Source: Aliarcobacter cryaerophilus
Lineage (GTDB): Bacteria > Campylobacterota > Campylobacteria > Campylobacterales > Arcobacteraceae
Assembly (NCBI RefSeq): GCF_014352935.1
Contig: NZ_CP060694.1
Location: 1,488,001 to 1,552,000, forward strand
Reading direction: 5' to 3'
Length of the DNA: 64,000 nt
Below, piece by piece: positions 24,057 to 34,954 of this stretch. Every line of letters begins with the position of its first letter. The stretch's first letter is position 1. The notes below the pieces were generated by a model. It was not told the origin of the DNA. It saw only the letters and a program-made list of their open reading frames with translations, and did no database searches. Position numbers and translations under genes: made by a program.

Positions 24057-24173
24057 CTCTTATCCTTTTATATAAATAAAATTTCATATAAATTTATAGC
24101 AAATTTTTGTATCAAATAAGATTAAATTTATTTGGGTACAATTTCCCAAAAATTAGCCAATTTAAGGATTTTT

Positions 24174-25325
24174 ATGAATAAAAGTTTAGAAACTATGCTA
24201 TGTCATTTAAAAGATTTTGCACCTTTTAAAGAGCCTACAAACTCTTCACACTTTCCAATATACAACACAGCAACTTTTGATTTAAAAAACCAAAATGGCG
24301 ATAAAATATATGATTATACAAGAAGTGATAATCCTACAAGAGCTACACTTGAAAACTTTTTTGCTTTTGCTGAAAATGGATATGGAGCTGTTTGCACTCA
24401 CACAGGAATAGCAGCTGTTTCACTTCTTTTTGAAACTGTTTTAAAAGCAAATTCATCTATTTTAGTTGAAGCTGATTGTTATGGTGGAACATTTAGGCTT
24501 TTAAAAGTTTTTAAAGAAAAATATAATATTAATGTAAACTTTACAGATTTTACAGATTTAAATATGCTTGAACATATTTTAAAAACTAATAATATAGATT
24601 TAGTTCTTTGTGAAAGTCCTACAAATCCAGGCTTAAAAATAATAGATTTAAAAGAGATATCTAAACTTTGTAAAGCACACAATTCTCTTTTTGCAGTTGA
24701 TAACTCACTTGCAACTTTTATTAGTCAAAAACCTCTTGATTTAGGAGCTGATTTTTCACTCTTTTCTACAACTAAATTTATAAGTGGTCACGGAAGCGTA
24801 ATTGCAGGTGCTATTGTTGCAAAAACTAAAGAGAACTCAGAAAAACTTCACTACTACTCAAATGCCTTAGGAAGAAACCAAAATCCTCTTGATGTTCATC
24901 TAATATCACTTGGAATTAGTAGCCTAAAAGTTAGAATGAAAGCAAGCGAAAAATTAGCAAAAAAATTTGCTAAATGGCTTGAAGAACAAGATTTTATAGA
25001 AAAAGTTACATTTCCAGCACTTAAATCACATCCACAAAGAGCTTTAGCAAAAAAACAGATGAAAATAATTCCTAGCGTTTTTTGTGCTGATTTTAAAAGT
25101 GTAGAACTAGCAGAAAAATTTATAGAAAATGCAAAAATATTTGGAGAAAAATGCTCTTTTGGAAGTGCTGATAGTAGAGTTGAAATACCATCTAAAATAT
25201 CTCATGCATCTTTTTCAAAAGAGGAGTTAAAAGCAATTGGAATATCTGATAGTACAGTACGATTTTCTATTGGATTTGAAGATTTAAAAGATTTAAAAGA
25301 GGATTTATTAGAAGCCATAAAATGA
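24174..25325 (+). CDS. Cys/Met-metabolism PLP enzyme (cystathionine gamma-synthase/beta-lyase type)
   Basis: 383 residues from the ATG that follows AAGGA by five bases; a TTG further upstream is rejected. A fold-type I PLP enzyme of transsulfuration: YNTATF, DYTRSDNPTRATLE, CTHTGIAAVSLL, ESPTNPGLKIIDL, VDNSLAT, and the PLP lysine in FSTTKFISGHGSVIAG. The C-terminal SCSFGSADSRVEIPSKISHA-like block differs from the usual SLGG. It should act on cystathionine, homocysteine or O-acyl-homoserine. Overlaps the next gene by four bases; the two probably work in one pathway. Confidence 0.9.
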   Translation: MNKSLETMLCHLKDFAPFKEPTNSSHFPIYNTATFDLKNQNGDKIYDYTRSDNPTRATLENFFAFAENGYGAVCTHTGIAAVSLLFETVLKANSSILVEADCYGGTFRLLKVFKEKYNINVNFTDFTDLNMLEHILKTNNIDLVLCESPTNPGLKIIDLKEISKLCKAHNSLFAVDNSLATFISQKPLDLGADFSLFSTTKFISGHGSVIAGAIVAKTKENSEKLHYYSNALGRNQNPLDVHLISLGISSLKVRMKASEKLAKKFAKWLEEQDFIEKVTFPALKSHPQRALAKKQMKIIPSVFCADFKSVELAEKFIENAKIFGEKCSFGSADSRVEIPSKISHASFSKEELKAIGISDSTVRFSIGFEDLKDLKEDLLEAIK

Positions 25326-26821
25326 TAAAAGAGTCTATTTTTAAACCAATCTCTTGTGGTGAGACGTTACCAGTAAATAATATTCATGCAGTTTCTACAT
25401 CTATGCCAACACTTCAAGATGTAATTGATTATGAGGAACAAACACCGCAGATTTTAGAAAAAATAACAGTTGCATATCCTAGATTTATAGTTCATCCTTA
25501 TCTTAAAAAACTAGCAATTTATTTAAAATCAAAATATAAAGTTAGTGATAATTATGAACTTATTCTTCTTAGCAGCAAAAAGGCAGTAAAAGTTGTAAGC
25601 TCTAGATTTTATATAAATAATCCAATAGATATTGATGAAGATTTTGGTGTAATTATGGTTTTAAAAGGAAGACAGTACCAAAAAGTTTTAAAATTTATTC
25701 AACATGTTGGGTACAATTTATCTTCAAGATTAGCTGAAGATTATCTATATAATCTTGGAAAAATTTCAAATATTCACAAAGAAGAGCTTACAGATAAAAC
25801 AAAAGCAAAAGATATTCTAATTTCAACTTTATCAAGCGCCTATAATCAACCATCAAAAAATATTTGCCTAACTCCTTCAGGAATGAATGCAATGTATTGT
25901 GTTTTAAAAGGAATTAAGAATATTCAAGCAAAAAATGGGAGAACTATTTTAGTTCAACTAGGATGGCTATATCTTGATACTATGAATATTGTAAATCACT
26001 ATTTTGAAGAGAGTAAAATATTTTATGATGTTACAAATCTTGATAACTTGGAGAATTTTTTAAAAGAGAATGGATTAAAAGTTTCAGCAATCGTTACAGA
26101 AATTCCTACAAATCCACTTGTGCAAACAGTTGATTTAGAAAAACTTAAAAATCTTTGTGATACTTATAATATTCCTTTGGTTATAGACTCTACTTTTGCA
26201 ACGCCATATAATCTTAATTTAAACTCTTATGCTGATATTTATGTTGAATCATTGACAAAATTTGCTTGTGGAAATGCAGATGTTTTAATGGGTGCAATTA
26301 TTTTAAATAAAAACTCAAAAATCTCACATATTTCACAAGAGTTTTTTAAACACTGTGATGAACCATATATAAAAGATATTCAAAGATTGGCTTTAGAAAT
26401 ACAAGATTATAAAAATAGAGTTAAAAAAATATCTTCAAATACAAAAAAATTAGTCGAATATTTTCAAAAATCATCTTATATAGATGAAATTTTTTACTGT
26501 TTAAGTCCAAAATATAAAGAGAATTATGAAAAACTTGTGATTGATGAAAATAGTCTATGTGGAATAATATCAATCACCTTTAAAAAAGATTTCCAAAAAG
26601 TTTATGATAATTTAAACTTTCCAAAAGGTCCAAGCCTTGGAACTGAATTTACTCTTCTTATGCCCTATACATATTTAGCACACTATGATTTAATAGTAAG
26701 TAAAGAGGGTAAAGAGTTTTTAGAAAAAATAAATCTTCCTATAAAGCTTCTTAGAATATCTGTTGGAGTAGAAAATATAGATGAGATTATAAATGAGTTT
26801 GAGAAATTAAATACTATTTAA
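25322..26821 (+). CDS. Long cystathionine gamma-synthase-like PLP enzyme with N-terminal extension
   Basis: 499 residues, about 110 more than bacterial MetB. The C-terminal two thirds are a Cys/Met PLP enzyme: LTPSGMNAMY, TEIPTNPLVQTVDL, VIDSTFATPYN and the PLP lysine in VESLTKFACGNADVLMG, then KGPSLGTEFTL. The extra N-terminal part (INNIHAVSTSMPTLQDVIDY, then YPRFIVHPYLKKLA) resembles the conserved N-terminus of fungal cystathionine gamma-synthases (HAVSVSLPTW..GYEE...YPRFF.H), from memory of that family. The ATGA overlap with the preceding PLP gene indicates translational coupling and possibly a shared complex. Confidence 0.82.
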   Translation: MIKESIFKPISCGETLPVNNIHAVSTSMPTLQDVIDYEEQTPQILEKITVAYPRFIVHPYLKKLAIYLKSKYKVSDNYELILLSSKKAVKVVSSRFYINNPIDIDEDFGVIMVLKGRQYQKVLKFIQHVGYNLSSRLAEDYLYNLGKISNIHKEELTDKTKAKDILISTLSSAYNQPSKNICLTPSGMNAMYCVLKGIKNIQAKNGRTILVQLGWLYLDTMNIVNHYFEESKIFYDVTNLDNLENFLKENGLKVSAIVTEIPTNPLVQTVDLEKLKNLCDTYNIPLVIDSTFATPYNLNLNSYADIYVESLTKFACGNADVLMGAIILNKNSKISHISQEFFKHCDEPYIKDIQRLALEIQDYKNRVKKISSNTKKLVEYFQKSSYIDEIFYCLSPKYKENYEKLVIDENSLCGIISITFKKDFQKVYDNLNFPKGPSLGTEFTLLMPYTYLAHYDLIVSKEGKEFLEKINLPIKLLRISVGVENIDEIINEFEKLNTI

Positions 26822-27775: not shown

Positions 27776-28684
27776 TCATTTATAACTTTTTGCAATCTCG
27801 TTTGCTACAAAAAGCATATTATTGTACCAATCATCACTTAATGGATTTATAGATACTACATTTGCACCAACATTTTGTGAAATTGTTTTTGCACTTTTTT
27901 GTGAAAATTGAGGTGCTACAAATACTATTTTTATATTATGTTTTTTTGCTTCTTCTACTAACTGAAGTAACTCATTTGGTTTTGGCTCTTTCCCTTCAGT
28001 CTCAATAGATATTTGCTCAATATCATATCTTTTTGCAAAATATCCCCAAGACGGATGAAATACCATAAAAGCAGAGTCTTTATAAGGTTTTAATATATTT
28101 TTTATCTCATTATCCAAATTATCTAGCTCTTTTACAAACTCTTCATAATTAGCTTTATAAAAATGACTATTTTCTTCATCTATTTTAACCATTGCTTCAT
28201 AAATATTTTTTGCTTGAATTTTTACACTTATTGGGTCTAACCAAATATGTGGATCAAGTCCATCATCTTCATGAGAGTGTCCATTTTTATCTTCATGTTT
28301 ATGATTAGAATGATTATGTTTTTTGTGCTCATCTTCTTCATCATGATGAGTGTGTTCAACCATAGCAATTTTTTCTACTCCAATAGTTGTATCAACAAAA
28401 ATTGTACTTTTTGCATTTTGTTTAAATCTCGTAATCCAAGCTTTTTCACTAGGTTCTCCTATCATAAAATATGCTTTTGAATTACCTAAAGATTTCATTT
28501 GAGATGCTTTTGGCTCAAAATTGTGAGGAGAACTACCTGGTTTTACCATAACATTAATATCAAACTTATCTTTTACTATTTTTTCTACAAAATATTTTTG
28601 TGGTAAAATTGTAACTGTTAACTCCTGCTTTGAAGCAAATAAAATTGTTGTAAACAACATAAAAATTAGTAAATAATTTCTCAT
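27776..28684 (-). CDS. znuA: Zinc ABC transporter substrate-binding protein
   Basis: A 302-residue periplasmic metal-binding lipoprotein-like or secreted SBP of cluster A-I. It has a signal peptide (YLLIFMLFTTILFASKQ). Metal ligands are SPHNFEPKAS (first His), DPHIWLDPI (second), FMVFHPSWGYFA (third) and NPLSDDW. The loop before the second ligand is extremely His/Asp/Glu-rich (HTHHDEEDEHKKHNHSNH and on), the hallmark of zinc rather than manganese SBPs. The permease and ATPase genes are not in this window. Divergent from a Fur-family regulator across two palindromes. Confidence 0.94.
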   Translation of the reverse strand: MRNYLLIFMLFTTILFASKQELTVTILPQKYFVEKIVKDKFDINVMVKPGSSPHNFEPKASQMKSLGNSKAYFMIGEPSEKAWITRFKQNAKSTIFVDTTIGVEKIAMVEHTHHDEEDEHKKHNHSNHKHEDKNGHSHEDDGLDPHIWLDPISVKIQAKNIYEAMVKIDEENSHFYKANYEEFVKELDNLDNEIKNILKPYKDSAFMVFHPSWGYFAKRYDIEQISIETEGKEPKPNELLQLVEEAKKHNIKIVFVAPQFSQKSAKTISQNVGANVVSINPLSDDWYNNMLFVANEIAKSYK

Positions 28685-28711: not shown

Positions 28712-28726
28712 TGCAACTAGGTTGCA
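28712..28726. promoter_or_regulatory. Palindromic operator 1 (znuA side)
   Basis: TGCAAC-TAG-GTTGCA, a perfect 6-bp dyad with a 3-nt centre, 28 bp upstream of the znuA start. Similar to the element 50 bp away. A likely Zur/Fur-type operator by position; binding is inference. Confidence 0.65.
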
Positions 28727-28805: not shown

Positions 28806-29168
28806 ATGATAAAAGAAAATTTTTCAAATATAAAACTTACAAGTGCCAGAAAATCTATCTTGGATATACTTATAAACTCAAGTAAACCATTAAGTTATGA
28901 AGATATAAAAGATAAAATATCTATGGATAAAGCAACTTTTTACAGAAATATCACGATTTTTGAAGAAGAAAATCTTATAAACTCTTTTGAGTCAAATGAT
29001 AAAAAAAGATATTTTGAAATAAAAGATATTGAGCATTCACACTTTATTTGTAACAACTGTTCAAATATTGAGTGTATTTTTGAAAAACCAAACTTTCTTT
29101 TACAAGATTATAAAATTGAAAATATTATCCTAAAAGGAAAATGTAAGGAGTGCAATAAAAATGGCTAA
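28806..29168 (+). CDS. Fur-family metal-responsive regulator (Zur-like)
   Basis: 120 residues, slightly short. The winged helix has LTSARKSILDILINSSKPLS and recognition helix MDKATFYRNITIFEEENLI. The dimerisation domain has FEIKDIEHSHFICNNCSNIE and a final GKCKECNKNG, giving two CxxC pairs for structural zinc. Because it diverges from znuA across two matching palindromes, a zinc-sensing (Zur) role is the simplest reading, but a Fur or PerR role cannot be excluded. The stop overlaps the nhaA start by eight bases, placing the regulator at the head of the nhaA-P1B ATPase operon. Confidence 0.88.
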   Translation: MIKENFSNIKLTSARKSILDILINSSKPLSYEDIKDKISMDKATFYRNITIFEEENLINSFESNDKKRYFEIKDIEHSHFICNNCSNIECIFEKPNFLLQDYKIENIILKGKCKECNKNG

Positions 29169-30426
29169 AATACTTTCCGCTAGCTACTTAAGAAAAATTG
29201 TAAATATAAAGAATCAATACAAATTTATAAGAAGCTTTATATCAACTGCAACTTTAAGTGGAATTCAGCTCTTTTTGGTGACAGTTTTGGCTGTTTATAT
29301 AGCAAACTCTATGTTTGCTCCACAATATTTTGAACTTTTAAAAACACATTTTAGCTTCTCTTTTGGAACACACACTTTTTCTATGAGCCTTCAGCACTGG
29401 ATAAATGATGTTTTAATGGCACTATTTTTCTTAGTTGTTGGTCTTGAAATAAAAAGAGATATGCTAGTAGGTGAGCTTTCAAGTCCAAAAAAAGCATCAT
29501 TTCCTATAATTGCAGCACTTGGAGGGATGATTATTCCAGCAATATTGTATCTAAGTGTAAATCAATCTCATCCAACAGGATTTGGAATTCCTATGGCTAC
29601 AGATATTGCTTTTGCCTTAGGAATTTTAATGCTTTTAGGAAAAAGAGTTAGTCTATCTTTAAAAGTATTTTTAGTAACTTTAGCTGTTGTAGATGATTTA
29701 GGAGCAATAGTTGTAGTTGCAATATTTTATACAAGTGAACTTCATTATGACTTTTTACTTTATTCAGTTTTAACATATTTTATTCTTATGATTTTTAACT
29801 ATTTTAATCTAGTACGTGTTATGCCTTACCTATTTATTGGTATTTTTCTATGGATTTTTATACATAGTTCTGGTATTCACTCTACAATAGCTGGAATTCT
29901 TCTAGCTTTTGTAATTCCTTTAAAAGCAAAAAATACAACAGTTGAAGAGATTGAAGAGCATAACTCAAAAAGTCCACTTTTGAGAGTTGAACATGCACTT
30001 CATAACTTTAGTGCATTTATTATAATGCCTGTTTTTGCATTTGCAAATGCAGGTGTTGAACTAGATTTTGCAAGTGTTATAGAGAATAAAACAATTGTTC
30101 TTGGAGTATTTTTAGGTTTACTTATTGGTAAGCCTATTGGAATTTTAGCTTCAACTTATCTTGCAACAAAATTTAAAATTAGTGAAAAACCAGCAAATGT
30201 AACTTGGAGTGAAATTTTAGCAGTTGGATTCTTAGCAGGAATTGGATTTACTATGTCAATTTTTATCTCTGTTTTAGCTTTTGATGATCCACATATTGTA
30301 AGTGCGGTAAAAATTGGTATTTTTGCTAGTTCAATTAGTGCTGCAGTTATTGGAGTTATTTTTCTTCTAATTGTGGGGAAAAAAGAGACACAAAAAGAGT
30401 TTCTAGAAGGTCTAAATGATAAATAG
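29161..30426 (+). CDS. nhaA: Na+/H+ antiporter NhaA
   Basis: A 421-residue inner-membrane antiporter. The signature motifs are PMATDIAFALGILMLLGKR (discontinuous helix) and LAVVDDLGAIVVVAIFY, which carries the two adjacent ion-binding aspartates; FGLEIKRDMLVGEL-type loop and FAGIGFTMSIFIS near the C-terminus also match. It exports sodium and regulates pH. The gene overlaps both neighbours: the Fur-family regulator by 8 bp and the HMA2-like gene by 11 bp. Such coupling to metal genes is unusual. Confidence 0.95.
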   Translation: MAKILSASYLRKIVNIKNQYKFIRSFISTATLSGIQLFLVTVLAVYIANSMFAPQYFELLKTHFSFSFGTHTFSMSLQHWINDVLMALFFLVVGLEIKRDMLVGELSSPKKASFPIIAALGGMIIPAILYLSVNQSHPTGFGIPMATDIAFALGILMLLGKRVSLSLKVFLVTLAVVDDLGAIVVVAIFYTSELHYDFLLYSVLTYFILMIFNYFNLVRVMPYLFIGIFLWIFIHSSGIHSTIAGILLAFVIPLKAKNTTVEEIEEHNSKSPLLRVEHALHNFSAFIIMPVFAFANAGVELDFASVIENKTIVLGVFLGLLIGKPIGILASTYLATKFKISEKPANVTWSEILAVGFLAGIGFTMSIFISVLAFDDPHIVSAVKIGIFASSISAAVIGVIFLLIVGKKETQKEFLEGLNDK

Positions 30427-30730
30427 TGAAACTATCATAAGAATTTCTAGTTATTTCACAATTATTGCACATACTCCTGGAAGATTAAGAGTTAGAGTAA
30501 ATCCAAAAATAGTCAATGAAGCAGAGAATATATCTTTAGATGATATTACAAATCTTCCAAAAAAAATATCTGGTATTGAAGATATTAAAATAAATAAAAT
30601 TATAGCTTCTGTTACAATTATATATAATCCTACTATTTTTAAGCCAAAACTATGGGAAGATTTGATAAAAAATGAAAATATAGATGAAATAACACAAATT
30701 ATAAATAATCTATCAAAGGAGGCTATATAA
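30416..30730 (+). CDS. HMA2-like domain protein
   Basis: 104 residues with a single ferredoxin-like heavy-metal-associated-type (HMA2) fold. IIAHTPGRLRVRVNPKI contains the H-x-PGR-x-R-x-R motif seen in these proteins, followed by ISGIEDIKINKIIASVTIIY. It lacks the CxxC of classical HMA domains and has no cysteine at all, so it is not a copper/zinc chaperone of the usual kind. The ATG lies inside the nhaA end with AAGG upstream. It overlaps the ferritin-like gene by one base. The HMA2/P1B-6 association is known from ferrosome-type clusters; its role here is inference. Confidence 0.75.
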   Translation: MINSETIIRISSYFTIIAHTPGRLRVRVNPKIVNEAENISLDDITNLPKKISGIEDIKINKIIASVTIIYNPTIFKPKLWEDLIKNENIDEITQIINNLSKEAI

Positions 30731-31416
30731 TGCCCATAGATTACAATATTTTAATTAAAAAAAGAGTTGATTTAAATTCAAATATAAATATTGATGAGCA
30801 GATTTTACAAATCGCTATTTATGATGAGTTTAAAGCTTACGAAACTTATAGCAAAATAATTGAAACTTTTGGAAATATAGATCCATTTATCAATATTAAA
30901 GAGTCTGAAGCAGTACACTATAGTATGCTTATAAAATTAGCAGAAAAATATAGTGTAGAAGTTCCAATAAATGACTGGAAAGATAAAATAGAAATCCCAA
31001 ACAACTTAATAGAGTGTTATGAATTGGGAGTTGCAGCAGAGATTGAAAATATTGCTATGTACAATAATCTTTTAATAAATTCAACAAAAAGTGATATTAC
31101 AGATGCACTTTTTAGACTTCAAGCTGCCTCTTTTAACAATCATTTACCAGCTTTTAGATCTTGTGTAATAAATTACTACAATAGCTTTCACTCTTCTTCA
31201 AATAGTAGCGAAGATATTATGCAAAAAATGCAAGAGTACCAAGAGATTGTAAATAATCTTATGAATGGAAATATAGATGAAAATACAATTTCAAATCTTA
31301 GTTCAAAACTATTTTCAAATATAAGTTTTCAATTTTTAGGTGGCGCTGTTAGTGGAGCTGCAATTGTAGCACTTTTAAATCAATTTTTAGAAAATCAAAA
31401 TTCAAACAAGGAGTAA
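30730..31416 (+). CDS. Ferritin-like protein with C-terminal membrane/Gly-zipper segment
   Basis: 228 residues. The first ~150 form a four-helix ferritin-like/rubrerythrin-type domain (DUF2202-like). Candidate di-iron ligands are in YDEFKAYETY (E33, E38), KESEAVHYSMLIKLAE (E60, H63) and ELGVAAEIENIAMY (E98, E104, E106). After a Ser/Asn-rich linker, the C-terminus is a hydrophobic glycine-rich helix, FQFLGGAVSGAAIVALL, followed by a short polar tail, which should anchor the protein to a membrane. That tail is unusual for this family. It has a perfect AAAGGAGG ribosome site. A role as ferroxidase or iron sensor on the membrane of an iron organelle is inferred from context. Confidence 0.72.
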   Translation: MPIDYNILIKKRVDLNSNINIDEQILQIAIYDEFKAYETYSKIIETFGNIDPFINIKESEAVHYSMLIKLAEKYSVEVPINDWKDKIEIPNNLIECYELGVAAEIENIAMYNNLLINSTKSDITDALFRLQAASFNNHLPAFRSCVINYYNSFHSSSNSSEDIMQKMQEYQEIVNNLMNGNIDENTISNLSSKLFSNISFQFLGGAVSGAAIVALLNQFLENQNSNKE

Positions 31417-31419
31417 AAA

Positions 31420-31695
31420 ATGGCATTACCATTTATAGCTGGTTTAGCTCTTGGAGCTTTAGGAGTTGTTGCTTATAAAAATAGAGATATCATTAAAAAA
31501 AAGGGTGAAAATATTTTTAAAGATGCAAAAGAAAAAGGTGAAATTTTAAAAAAAGATATTGAAACAAAAATTTCACAAACAAAAAAGAAGTTTGAAAAAG
31601 AAGATACAAAAAAAATAGTTGAAAAACCAAAAGCTACAAAAAAAACATATTCAAGAAAGCCAAAAACTACTGAAAATAAAGAGGCAAATTTATGA
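31420..31695 (+). CDS. Small membrane protein with basic coiled tail
   Basis: 91 residues: one short N-terminal glycine-rich helix (ALPFIAGLALGALGVVAYKN), then a Lys/Glu-rich helical tail (KKKGENIFKDAKEKGEILKK and on) ending in a Lys/Thr-rich disordered end. The layout resembles YtxH-type small proteins. I do not recognise a specific family. It lies three bases after the ferritin-like gene and overlaps the next by four. Possibly a membrane-bending or anchoring component; no function is shown. Confidence 0.7.
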   Translation: MALPFIAGLALGALGVVAYKNRDIIKKKGENIFKDAKEKGEILKKDIETKISQTKKKFEKEDTKKIVEKPKATKKTYSRKPKTTENKEANL

Positions 31696-32036
31696 AAAAT
31701 ATAAATACAGGAACACCTAGAAATGTTTTAGGTCATGTAATAAGTGGTGCAATAGCAAGTGCTGTTATTAGTGGTGCAATAAATTACAAGAAATATCAAA
31801 ACGGTCAAATAAAAAAGTGTGAAGCAATAAAAGATACTACAAAAAAAGCAACTCAAGGTGCTATTGTTACAGGAAGTGCTATTGCTACAACGAACTATAT
31901 TGGTGAAGGAAACTATCTTAGAGCTTTAACATCAGCTTCTATTGGAATGGCTGGAATTTATGCATTAGAAATAATTGAAGAAAAACTAGAGCAAAAATAC
32001 TTAATAAACCAAAATCTAGAATTAGAGGAAAACTAA
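31692..32036 (+). CDS. Small Gly-zipper membrane protein
   Basis: 114 residues with two or three glycine/alanine-zipper helices: VLGHVISGAIASAVISGAI, QGAIVTGSAIATTNYIG and LTSASIGMAGIYALEIIEE, then an acidic C-terminus. Glycine-zipper helices pack closely in membranes and recur in magnetosome- and ferrosome-associated proteins (general knowledge). No catalytic motif. The ATG overlaps the preceding stop, and the next gene follows directly. Confidence 0.7.
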   Translation: MKNINTGTPRNVLGHVISGAIASAVISGAINYKKYQNGQIKKCEAIKDTTKKATQGAIVTGSAIATTNYIGEGNYLRALTSASIGMAGIYALEIIEEKLEQKYLINQNLELEEN

Positions 32037-32037
32037 A

Positions 32038-32406
32038 ATGGCTAATAACAATCAAAATTTTAATCAATATAACACAGATATAAATAGTACAAGAAATAGC
32101 AATCAAAATGGGCTAAATATAAACCAAAATCCATACATCAATAGTGGTGTAAATCAAAATTTTATAGGACAAAATCCGAATAATCAAATACAAAACCAAT
32201 CAAGCTCTTTTTTAAATGGGGATTTTATAAAAGGTGCATTAATTGGAGCAGTAGCAACTTATATTTTAACAAATAAAAATGCTCAAGAGAGTATTTTTGA
32301 AACAATAAACAAAGTAAAAAATCTTGCAACTGCTGGCTTTGAAGAGCTAAAAGAGAGAATTGAAGATGCAAAAGCAGCTTCAAAAGTAAATGAACAAGAG
32401 TTTTAA
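32038..32406 (+). CDS. Asn/Gln-rich YtxH-like membrane protein
   Basis: 122 residues. The first 60 are a low-complexity Asn/Gln/Ser-rich segment, then one glycine-zipper helix (FIKGALIGAVATYILTNKNA) and an amphipathic helical tail (VKNLATAGFEELKERIEDAK). The helix-plus-charged-tail half is YtxH-like. The Asn-rich N-terminus is likely cytoplasmic and disordered. One base separates it from the previous stop, and it is five bases before the P1B ATPase gene. Confidence 0.7.
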   Translation: MANNNQNFNQYNTDINSTRNSNQNGLNINQNPYINSGVNQNFIGQNPNNQIQNQSSSFLNGDFIKGALIGAVATYILTNKNAQESIFETINKVKNLATAGFEELKERIEDAKAASKVNEQEF

Positions 32407-32411
32407 AAATA

Positions 32412-34529
32412 ATGAATAAAAAATTTATAAAAGTTCATCAAATAGGACTTAGAGCTAGATATAAGCTTGAAATACTAAAAGATAATTTTATAGATGAAGA
32501 TATTTTAAAAGGTTATTTTAATAATTTTAGTGAAATACAAAGTATAAGAGTAAATAAAAAAGCATATTCAATAATATTTGAACTCAAAAAAGATATCTTT
32601 CAAGATATAGAAAAGAGATTAAAAACCATTACTTTAGAAAATCTCTTAAAATCTGCATCAAAAAGTGAAGCTAGTGTTTGTGTATCTTGTACATCAAACA
32701 AAGAGCCATCTATAAAAGGAACTCTACTTGCAACTACTGCTTTGGTTGCCGAAAGATTGGTTACAAATAATAGTTTAAAAGCTGCTATTACAAGCGTTGC
32801 TTCAGTTCCTCTTCTAATTGATGGTACAAAAGAGCTTTTTAATGATGGTTTAACTTCTCATGTACTTGAAGCAGCAGCTGTAGCTATTTCTATTTATAGA
32901 AAAGATTATCTTGCAGCAAACTCAACAAATGCTATGTTAGAGCTTGGTGAATATATAGAAGAAACTACTGTTCATAAAAGTGATGATTTACTAAAAGAGC
33001 TAGCTCGCCCAAATATTGAAGAAGCTTGGGTTGAAAGAAAAGTAGATGGAAAAGTAGTAGAAGTTTTAGTAAAAACAGCTGAACTAAAAGTAGGTGATAT
33101 TGTAGTAGTTGGAGCAGGAAGTACTATTGCAATAGATGGTCATATAATAGATGGAGCAGGTACAATTAACCAAGTATCAATGACTGGAGAGGCAGAACCA
33201 ATAGCAAAATATAGAGGAGATAGAGTAATATCTGGAACTATTGTCGAAGAAGGAAGATTTAGAATTTGGGCTGAGCAAGTTGGTGCAAATACGGCAACTC
33301 AAAGAATAAAACATTACATAGAAAACTCTTTAAATGAAAAGTCATCTGCTCAGCTAAAAGCAAATCGACTTGCAGACAAGCTAGTTCCTGTTACTTTAGG
33401 ATTAGCAACCGCTGCTTATATTTTTACAAAAGATTTTCAAAGAGTTGCATCTGTACTTCAAGCTGATTACTCTTGTGCTTTAAAACTTGCAACTCCTGTT
33501 GCTTTTAAATCTACAATTTCAAAAGCTGGTCATAGTGGAATTATGATAAAAGGTGCAAAATCTATTGAAGCACTAAGTAGTGCTGATACCTTTGTTTTTG
33601 ATAAGACAGGAACTCTTACAAGTGGTGAATTAGAAGTTATAAGTGTTGATTCCTATGATAAAAATTGGAGTGAAGAGAAGCTTTTAAATCTTACAGCTTC
33701 AACAGAAGAGCACTATTTTCATCCTGTAGCTGAAGCTGTTGTAAAGGCAGCAAAAGAGAGAGGTTTTGTACATATGCATCACGAAGAGGTTCAATTTATA
33801 GTAGCCCATGGTGTAAAAACAGAAATAAAAGGTAAAAATGTAGTAATAGGAAGCAGACATTTTTTAGAAGATGATGAAAAAATAGATTTTTCTTCATACA
33901 AAAAAGATATTGAAAACTCTTTAAAAAAGAGTGATACTTTACTATATGTTGGATATGATGGTAAACTTTTAGGAACTATTGGACTTAGTGATGAGTTACG
34001 AGAAAATACAAAAGAGAGTATAAAAAGATTAAAATCTCTTGGTGTAAAAAATATTGTAATGCTAACAGGAGATACAAAAACAAAAGCTTTAAAAATTGCT
34101 GATGAGTTAGGTATTAATGAGGTAAAAGCCGAACTTTTACCTCAAGATAAAGCAAATATTGTAAAAGAGTTGATGCAAGAGGGTAAAAAAGTTGCTTTCA
34201 TTGGAGATGGTATAAATGATGCTCCTGCTCTTATATCTTCTCATGTTGGAATTTCAATGAGTCGTGGAGCTGATATAGCAAAAGCAACTGCTGATATTAG
34301 TCTATTAAAAGATGATATCGCTGCTGTTGTTGAAGCAAAAGAGTTTGCAAATAAAACCATGAATTTGATAAATACTAACTTCAATGCAACTGTTGGAATA
34401 AATAGTGCAATTCTTTTAGGTGCAACTTTTGGTCTATTCTCTCCTATTGTAACAGCTGTATTACACAATGGAACAACAATAGGATTACTATTAAATTCGA
34501 TAAAAGGGGTAAAATTAGCTAAAAAATAG
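32412..34529 (+). CDS. P1B-type (P1B-6-like) metal-transporting ATPase
   Basis: 705 residues. The N-terminus is a degenerate HMA2-like domain (VHQIGLRARYKLEI) with a CVSC pair at C90/C93 before the membrane part. The actuator is MTGEAEPIAKYRGD; the phosphorylation site is FDKTGTLTSG (D397); the N-domain has EEHYFHPVAEAV; the hinge is MLTGDTKTKA and FIGDGINDAPAL. The membrane metal site reads DYSCALKLATPVAF (S354, C355), so the usual CPC is replaced by YSC/SCA. That matches the P1B-6 subgroup, which includes FezB of ferrosomes and has been linked to iron. The metal and direction are inferred, not shown. It follows the small membrane genes by five bases and lacks a strong ribosome site. Confidence 0.9.
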   Translation: MNKKFIKVHQIGLRARYKLEILKDNFIDEDILKGYFNNFSEIQSIRVNKKAYSIIFELKKDIFQDIEKRLKTITLENLLKSASKSEASVCVSCTSNKEPSIKGTLLATTALVAERLVTNNSLKAAITSVASVPLLIDGTKELFNDGLTSHVLEAAAVAISIYRKDYLAANSTNAMLELGEYIEETTVHKSDDLLKELARPNIEEAWVERKVDGKVVEVLVKTAELKVGDIVVVGAGSTIAIDGHIIDGAGTINQVSMTGEAEPIAKYRGDRVISGTIVEEGRFRIWAEQVGANTATQRIKHYIENSLNEKSSAQLKANRLADKLVPVTLGLATAAYIFTKDFQRVASVLQADYSCALKLATPVAFKSTISKAGHSGIMIKGAKSIEALSSADTFVFDKTGTLTSGELEVISVDSYDKNWSEEKLLNLTASTEEHYFHPVAEAVVKAAKERGFVHMHHEEVQFIVAHGVKTEIKGKNVVIGSRHFLEDDEKIDFSSYKKDIENSLKKSDTLLYVGYDGKLLGTIGLSDELRENTKESIKRLKSLGVKNIVMLTGDTKTKALKIADELGINEVKAELLPQDKANIVKELMQEGKKVAFIGDGINDAPALISSHVGISMSRGADIAKATADISLLKDDIAAVVEAKEFANKTMNLINTNFNATVGINSAILLGATFGLFSPIVTAVLHNGTTIGLLLNSIKGVKLAKK

Positions 34530-34605
34530 ATTTTAATAATAGTTATCAGTTTTGTTTAAGAAATTAAATAATACAATTCTTTTAATTTATTAAAGGATAT
34601 ATTTT

Positions 34606-34725
34606 ATGCCATTTTTATTACCATTAGCGACTTTAATCACAGGTGTTTTGACAGTTAAAACTGTAAATAAAACTATAAAAACTTATGAAAGAAGAAAAAA
34701 AAGAGATGAAAGAGCTAAAATTTGA
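34606..34725 (+). CDS. Micro-protein with one membrane helix (39 aa)
   Basis: A 39-codon gene with AAAGGATA eight bases before ATG. It encodes PFLLPLATLITGVLTVKTV, then a strongly basic tail (TYERRKKRDERAKI). Its N-terminus resembles that of the 91-residue protein in the same cluster (short hydrophobic glycine helix, then basic tail). The last ~40 nt overlap the next gene in another frame. A TACAAT box at 34572-34577 may serve as a separate promoter. Confidence 0.6.
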   Translation: MPFLLPLATLITGVLTVKTVNKTIKTYERRKKRDERAKI

Positions 34726-34954
34726 TTTAGAACTTCAAAAAGAAGTTGCAAAAATTGGAATGAGTGCAACTTTAGGTGCAACTGTTGTAACTTCAATGTT
34801 TATGAAAAATAAAATTGCCAAAAATACTCATATTATTGCAGGTGTTGCATTTTGCGGTTTTGCACTATGGCATCACATGCTTTACCAACCAAAAAAATCA
34901 AAAAAAGAGAATGAAAAAAATATTATAAATCCAACAAAATCTTCAATAAAATAA
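34685..34954 (+). CDS. Small two-helix membrane protein
   Basis: 89 residues from the first ATG. The alternative ATG six codons later (MKELKF) is equally possible, since both lie inside the overlapping 39-codon gene. Two hydrophobic helices, about residues 24-40 (IGMSATLGATVVTSMFM) and 48-67 (HIIAGVAFCGFALWHHML), are followed by a Lys-rich tail. Possibly translated by coupling with the nested upstream gene. No family is recognised. It is the last gene before pyrH and probably belongs to the P1B ATPase cluster. Confidence 0.62.
   Translation: MKEEKKEMKELKFDLELQKEVAKIGMSATLGATVVTSMFMKNKIAKNTHIIAGVAFCGFALWHHMLYQPKKSKKENEKNIINPTKSSIK

Follow-up and report, generated by a model that had tools for sequence, protein, structure and literature searches.

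We analyzed a 64,000-nucleotide stretch of Aliarcobacter cryaerophilus DNA (contig NZ_CP060694.1, positions 1,488,001 to 1,552,000; hereafter the window), taken from a genome of 2.02 Mb in a single contig, for a candidate locus of ferrosomes, very small iron-storing organelles enclosed by a membrane that have been shown in only a few bacteria. An original prediction, made from the letters of the window, had placed a ferrosome-like operon of ten packed, partly overlapping plus-strand genes at 28806-34954, and a check of coordinates recovered all ten open reading frames (ORFs), closely packed as described. Family scans with Pfam and NCBIfam returned FUR, NhaA, HMA_2, DUF2202/rubrerythrin, a remote match to MamC, a heavy-metal P1B ATPase, and a weak match to DUF4405. 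The conserved unit comprises seven of these genes, not ten, and the last of them, whose identity had been missed, resembles FezC. The seven genes, a small ORF, and a candidate regulatory site are listed here, with protein lengths in amino acids (aa) and the fourth transmembrane segment of the ATPase given as TM4.

30416..30730, + strand: HMA2-domain protein, 104 aa; PF19991 match of 29.9 bits; kept in cassettes phylum-wide
30730..31416, + strand: Fer, predicted ferritin-like bundle with a glycine-zipper tail; DUF2202 match, AlphaFold2 model, ligand conservation
31420..31695, + strand: Gz1, small glycine-zipper protein, 91 aa; constant slot between Fer and Gz2
31692..32036, + strand: Gz2, MamC-like glycine-zipper membrane protein, 114 aa; NCBIfam MamC, E = 2.5e-5
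32038..32406, + strand: Gz3, YtxH-like protein, 122 aa; in every cassette; plasmid homologues annotated YtxH
32412..34529, + strand: FezB-type P1B ATPase, 705 aa; Pfam/NCBIfam matches, TM4 ADYSCALKLATP, DKTGTLT, tree clade
34535..34549, + strand: Fur-box-like palindrome TAATAATAGTTATCA, 12/14, 5' of the 39-aa ORF and fezC
34606..34725, + strand: hydrophobic peptide ORF of 39 codons, overlapping fezC; relatives have phmmer matches in the same slot
34685..34954, + strand: FezC-like, DUF4405-type putative heme cytochrome, 89 aa; weak PF14358 match, two conserved histidines

The seven-gene cassette, its relatives and its distribution

In the 50 loci fetched from Campylobacterota, the order HMA2-Fer-Gz1-Gz2-Gz3-ATPase-FezC is near-constant. 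The small genes, which had been grouped with the ATPase from the window alone, are conserved with it in related genomes, and dozens of genomes keep the seven-gene order, far beyond chance. Gz1-Gz3 are present in nearly all of these cassettes, and Gz2 and Gz3 homologues also occur in other clusters; a minimal set, HMA2-Gz3-ATPase, stands in three loci of one family (L097-L099). Gz1 carries an N-terminal GLALGALG glycine zipper, and Gz3, which is also found in distant fez clusters, has one FIKGALIGA zipper segment. For the 39-aa ORF, phmmer found counterparts in the fezB-fezC interval of ten or more Arcobacteraceae loci. Close relatives of the ATPase were detected in 64 of the family's 104 genomes and, phylum-wide, in 135 of 397, the latter representing 28 of 68 genera and at least seven families. 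With Fer presence called at 1e-10 in the same 397 genomes, a Fer match was obtained in 123 genomes, all among the 135 ATPase carriers, and in none of the 262 ATPase-negative genomes (Fisher p = 2e-89, relatedness ignored).

The nearest named relative of the window cassette is a complete copy on the Arcobacter plasmid CP129951.1 (L109), which contains neither nhaA nor the regulator; this copy delimits the conserved unit and shows that it is mobile. A complete, conserved fez-type set is thereby found in about a third of the sampled Campylobacterota genomes and on a plasmid. CP129951.1 is one of two Arcobacter plasmids from chicken meat with FezB-type ATPases, the other being CP134847.1 (hit H2). 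Another complete cassette of the Campylobacterota type, its ATPase nested in the Campylobacterota clade, was present on JADGDG010000031.1 (L117), a contig of a metagenome-assembled genome labelled gammaproteobacterial, and may represent either transfer or a misbinned contig.

The ATPase has an HMA2-like N terminus and, in TM4 (ADYSCALKLATP), a DYSCALK motif and no CPC. In a 107-row tree, ATPases with the D[YF]SCA motif formed one clade of 34 rows, with 99% support in the Shimodaira-Hasegawa-like approximate likelihood ratio test (SH-aLRT); the window ATPase fell inside the Campylobacterota group, followed by Azospirillum, Sinirhodobacter, and Pseudothauera, and the CPC pumps, among them the two other P1B pumps of this genome, lay outside the clade. 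By its SCALK motif and separate clade, the protein does not belong with the CPC-type Cu/Zn/Cd pumps. The fez-type gene set that had been proposed was thus recovered: its ATPase branches with non-CPC ATPases from HMA2/glycine-zipper clusters, and a gene for a FezC-like cytochrome is present. As to the proposed FezB affiliation itself, the tree upheld the separation from CPC pumps and the grouping with HMA2/zipper-cluster ATPases, and the apparent fez membership is judged from the motif and clade of the ATPase together with the parts list and layout of the cassette. In many genomes a second P1B ATPase (703-774 aa, TM4 MSCPCATVLA) lies near the cassette, usually directly 5' of HMA2 (L064, L065, L066, L071, L073, L074, L077, L078, L081, L084, L089); it has an N-terminal NRVRLKS motif like HMA2 and forms its own long-branched clade.

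The HMA2 protein, encoded beside the ATPase, has an HxPGRxRVRV motif and no CxxC, and its PF19991 score lies 0.1 short of the cut-off of 30. No strong fold match was obtained with its structural model (best Z 5.2), which leaves Pfam as the basis of the HMA assignment. The last gene matched PF14358 (DUF4405) weakly (E = 0.0054); in an alignment of the window protein with 47 other rows, H48 is conserved in 47 of 48 and H62 in 48 of 48. FezC is the DUF4405-like heme cytochrome of ferrosomes (PMC10979944), and the window protein resembles it as a short two-histidine membrane protein within a fez cluster, with a putative heme; it differs in being a stand-alone 89-aa gene product, whereas some relatives carry a SpoIIAA-like fusion. 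The 3' gene in L065, L073, L074, and L117 encodes a FezC-like protein of ~200 aa, with a C-terminal SpoIIAA-like (PF11964) domain in L065 and L117. Gz2 shows remote similarity to the magnetosome protein MamC over ~80 residues, and MamC matches were likewise obtained for its homologues from Vibrio and Arcobacter plasmid clusters; at 24.5 bits versus a cut-off of 100, Gz2 falls outside the MamC family, and no magnetosome genes were found within the cassette.

Among the characterized systems closest to the cassette is the operon of Rhodopseudomonas palustris, in which six fez genes, RPA2333-2338, make ferrosomes (PMC12016538). It shares with the fez operon of strain CGA009 the expected parts, i.e., a FezB ATPase, HMA2 proteins, and small zipper proteins in a compact operon, and differs by the addition of Fer, a comparison made by layout and not by validated sequences. 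The six-gene cluster of Azospirillum plasmids, HMA2(+FezC domain)-HMA2-Gz1-Gz2-YtxH-ATPase, matches the R. palustris operon in gene count and in the types of protein encoded, but its FezC domain is fused to HMA2, whereas FezC is a separate 3' gene in the window. Grant 2022 reportedly counted the fez operon of Shewanella putrefaciens with this six-gene type. A wider contig scan with HAD-motif patterns revealed, among the matches listed, clusters of the FezB type that include HMA2 and Gz homologues, in Hahella, Desulfarculaceae, Rhodobacter, Cereibacter, Vibrio, and others; the clusters of Azospirillum, Vibrio, Cereibacter, and others have the same gene slots as the Campylobacterota cassette. 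The Fur-linked fezAB ferrosome system of Clostridioides difficile, consisting of membrane protein FezA and transporter FezB (PMC12574912), is similar in pairing a membrane protein with a FezB transporter and in a link to Fur that is a candidate feature of the cassette, whereas the cassette has seven genes, including the MamC-like, YtxH-like, Fer, and FezC genes, and the clostridial ATPases sampled branch apart from the window ATPase. A literature search found no paper linking 'ferrosome' with Campylobacterota; the supplement of Grant 2022 lay outside this search, and an earlier listing there is possible.

Fer, a predicted ferritin-like head on a glycine-zipper tail

Fer consists of a predicted four-helix bundle (approximately residues 20-156) and a C-terminal glycine-zipper tail. 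Its AlphaFold2 model, built from 33 sequences, is confident over bundle residues 1-155, with a predicted local distance difference test score (pLDDT) of ~97 over residues 10-150, and VIA-align matched it to bacterioferritins with Z ~17 and ~2 Å over ~134 residues; a PDB sequence search with Fer gave marginal matches only. Putative metal ligands, one set per helix (E33; E60xxH63; E104; H138), are retained in Arcobacteraceae and several other families. As modeled, the head belongs to the ferritin-like superfamily, being a four-helix bundle with a ligand set on each helix. The 4-Glu/2-His diiron ferroxidase site is incomplete, with F or Y at residue 135 in place of the fourth ExxH carboxylate. 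The bundle and the E, ExxH, E, H ligands are shared with bacterioferritin/DUF2202 proteins, but Fer differs from them in the zipper tail and the missing carboxylate and, unlike these proteins, occurs only alongside FezB in the phylum sample. In a Campylobacter-like clade (L078, L079, L082-L084, L088, L103), H63 and H138 are lost and the C-terminal GxxxG tail is kept.

When a tail-only profile was run against 8191 ORFs, its best non-Fer matches were proteins encoded in the second slot of further fez clusters, namely those of Desulfarculaceae (L114, 2e-8), Cereibacter (L107, 2e-4), and, more weakly, Rhodobacter (L118, 0.006); the heads of the L107 and L114 proteins are Pro/Gly/Met/His-rich. Because the Fer tail matches tails carried by Pro/His/Met-rich proteins of other fez clusters, the best reading of Fer is that of a ferritin head joined to a fez tail, apparently by a head swap. 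A divergent Fer is also present in Pseudothauera. On this reading, the two bacterial solutions to iron storage, ferritin and ferrosome, would be joined in one operon, and Fer would offer a direct test of the role of the variable head protein in fez clusters.

Iron context and placement behind zur-nhaA

Genes of iron uptake and regulation surround the cassette in other genomes. Divergent feoA-feoB lies beside it in L061, L062, L068, and L070, and a fur gene, likely the orthologue of the main Fur of the window genome, is found 3' of fezC in L061, L062, L068, L069, and L070; a separate Fur-like paralogue lies 5' of many cassettes. Fur-like boxes occur at approximately -70 to -90 before HMA2 in many loci, and scores of at least 11/14 were obtained for 22 of 38 HMA2 promoters versus 41 of 179 control promoters (p = 4e-5). 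The fezB-fezC gap contains 14/14 boxes in four Arcobacteraceae loci (L058, L059, L061, and L070) and a 12/14 box in the window (TAATAATAGTTATCA), which by itself does not reach significance, given how AT-rich the genome is. In L058-L063, a conserved protein of 125-130 aa with a zipper-like N terminus (SALVGAVATK) is encoded divergently from the cassette's Fur-like gene.

Upstream of HMA2, the window contains the following non-core genes and sites.

27776..28684, - strand: gene for zinc-binding protein ZnuA (context); PF01297, E = 2e-65; divergent from zur
28712..28726, no strand assigned: putative Zur box TGCAACTAGGTTGCA, conserved; one of two perfect matches in the genome
28762..28776, no strand assigned: a further putative Zur box TGCAACTTAGTAGCA, lying 30 bases 5' of zur
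28806..29168, + strand: Zur-type regulator, 120 aa; first gene of the read-through operon; lineage-local neighbor, divergent from znuA
29161..30426, + strand: NhaA Na+/H+ antiporter; TIGR00773 above cut-off; lineage-local, 3' of zur in most cassette-free congeners

The first gene had been called a Fur-type regulator and, together with nhaA, regarded as coupled to the system. Its match to the FUR family stands, with no NCBIfam equivalog call, and the gene most likely encodes Zur, since it is divergent from znuA and shares its box with znuCB; a role as iron regulator was rejected on these boxes. The genome contains the palindrome TGCAACTNNGTTGCA without mismatch at two places, one in the znuA/regulator intergenic region and one directly 5' of znuC-znuB; the palindrome is kept at 21 of 21 congeneric zur loci examined. 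A terminator-like hairpin considered at 28712-28726 was reassigned as the Zur box. One-mismatch palindromes of this type at L209:2935-2949 and L208:2865-2879 precede a gene for a small Cys-rich (zinc-ribbon-like) protein and a serS-like gene, respectively, which are possible further Zur targets.

The regulator was found in 15 of 15 genomes searched, most of which have znuA-zur-nhaA without the cassette; in those congeners any cassette is located at another site and accompanied by a Fur-like gene of its own. The coupling of nhaA and the regulator was therefore dropped as a trait of the system: nhaA is lineage-local among congeners, and the regulator belongs with znuA. In G013 and G030, a Fur-like gene and the cassette stand between nhaA and pyrH, and in the clade of the window the cassette's Fur-like gene is gone and the reading frames run together, with overlaps of 8 bases for zur/nhaA and 11 bases for nhaA/HMA2. 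The simplest history suggested by these arrangements is insertion behind nhaA, loss of the Fur-like regulator, and coupling to zur-nhaA. With the cassette placed behind these two genes, transcription of most of it in this lineage probably starts at a promoter controlled by Zur, and zinc control is predicted, while fezC perhaps keeps a Fur-type promoter of its own. Such a relocation from Fur to Zur would constitute a traceable regulatory switch with intermediates.

The ferrosome reading and its alternatives

The cassette is very probably a fez-type ferrosome locus with a layout characteristic of Campylobacterota. We observed its gene content, homology, conserved order, strict co-occurrence with Fer, predicted Fer fold, boxes, and congeneric differences in gene order; from homology we infer the transported metal, compartment formation, and topology, and we likewise infer Fer chemistry and zinc control. 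FezB would load Fe(II) into a compartment whose membrane would be shaped and lined by the HMA2 protein together with Gz1, MamC-like Gz2, and YtxH-like Gz3; FezC would carry electrons across this membrane and set the redox state of the iron; and Fer, anchored there through its zipper tail, would bind iron at the growing mineral and possibly oxidize it. Several points weigh against this picture. The link to proven ferrosome makers runs only via layout and relatives; the HMA_2, MamC, and DUF4405 matches all lie under curated cut-offs; Fer has F135 where ExxH is usual, and the Campylobacter-like clade has shed most Fer ligands; control promoters from the same iron-rich neighborhoods carry Fur-like boxes too; and 12/14 sites are not enriched genome-wide in the AT-rich window genome.

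Metal export is the usual role of P1B pumps and Fer is ferritin-like, so the genes might instead serve iron detoxification without an organelle, with the ATPase exporting Fe(II) from the cell, Fer acting as an iron buffer on the inner membrane, and the zipper proteins functioning as accessory pump subunits. Gene content alone cannot show a compartment; however, three conserved glycine-zipper proteins, one of them MamC-like, and FezC fit the fez parts list, and the six fez genes of R. palustris do make ferrosomes, which leaves detoxification improbable. Far less credible still is an ordinary Cu/Zn/Cd/Co efflux operon mislabelled via its HMA2 domain, to which the NCBIfam label of heavy-metal/cadmium-family ATPase and the Zur-like, lineage-specific promoter, suggestive of zinc, would point. 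The absence of CPC, a tree position apart from the CPC clades in which both other P1B pumps of the genome fall, and the feoAB and fur neighbors in other genera all argue otherwise, and zinc-efflux genes would be unexpected behind a zinc-uptake repressor; copper/zinc efflux was discarded on the TM4 motif and the tree.

Two further alternatives are compatible with a ferrosome and concern Fer and the control of the cassette. That Fer is purely structural, a scaffold or nucleator with weak or no ferroxidase activity, falls only a little short of an even chance: the fourth carboxylate is missing, one clade's ligands decay although it keeps the fold slot and the GxxxG tail, and an unrelated Pro/His/Met-rich head sits on the same tail in other clusters, but the retention of E33, E60xxH63, E104, and H138 in Arcobacteraceae and several other families speaks against it. 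A promoter internal to nhaA could drive the cassette, still under Fur, leaving the Zur coupling without effect. The Fur-like box retained before fezC fits this possibility, and consensus promoter-like sites do occur within nhaA, but no more than in shuffles; with no Fur-like box 5' of HMA2 in the fused lineage and gene overlaps that favor a single transcript, we regard it as rather unlikely. The fullest version of the ferrosome reading, a distinct Campylobacterota organelle with a tethered ferritin head in or on it and with control passed from Fur to Zur, such that zinc starvation would trigger iron storage, is advanced tentatively, as the less probable side of the question.

Elsewhere in the window, positions 24132-26821 contain tandem overlapping genes for pyridoxal phosphate (PLP)-dependent enzymes of the Cys/Met-metabolism type, of 397 and 499 aa.

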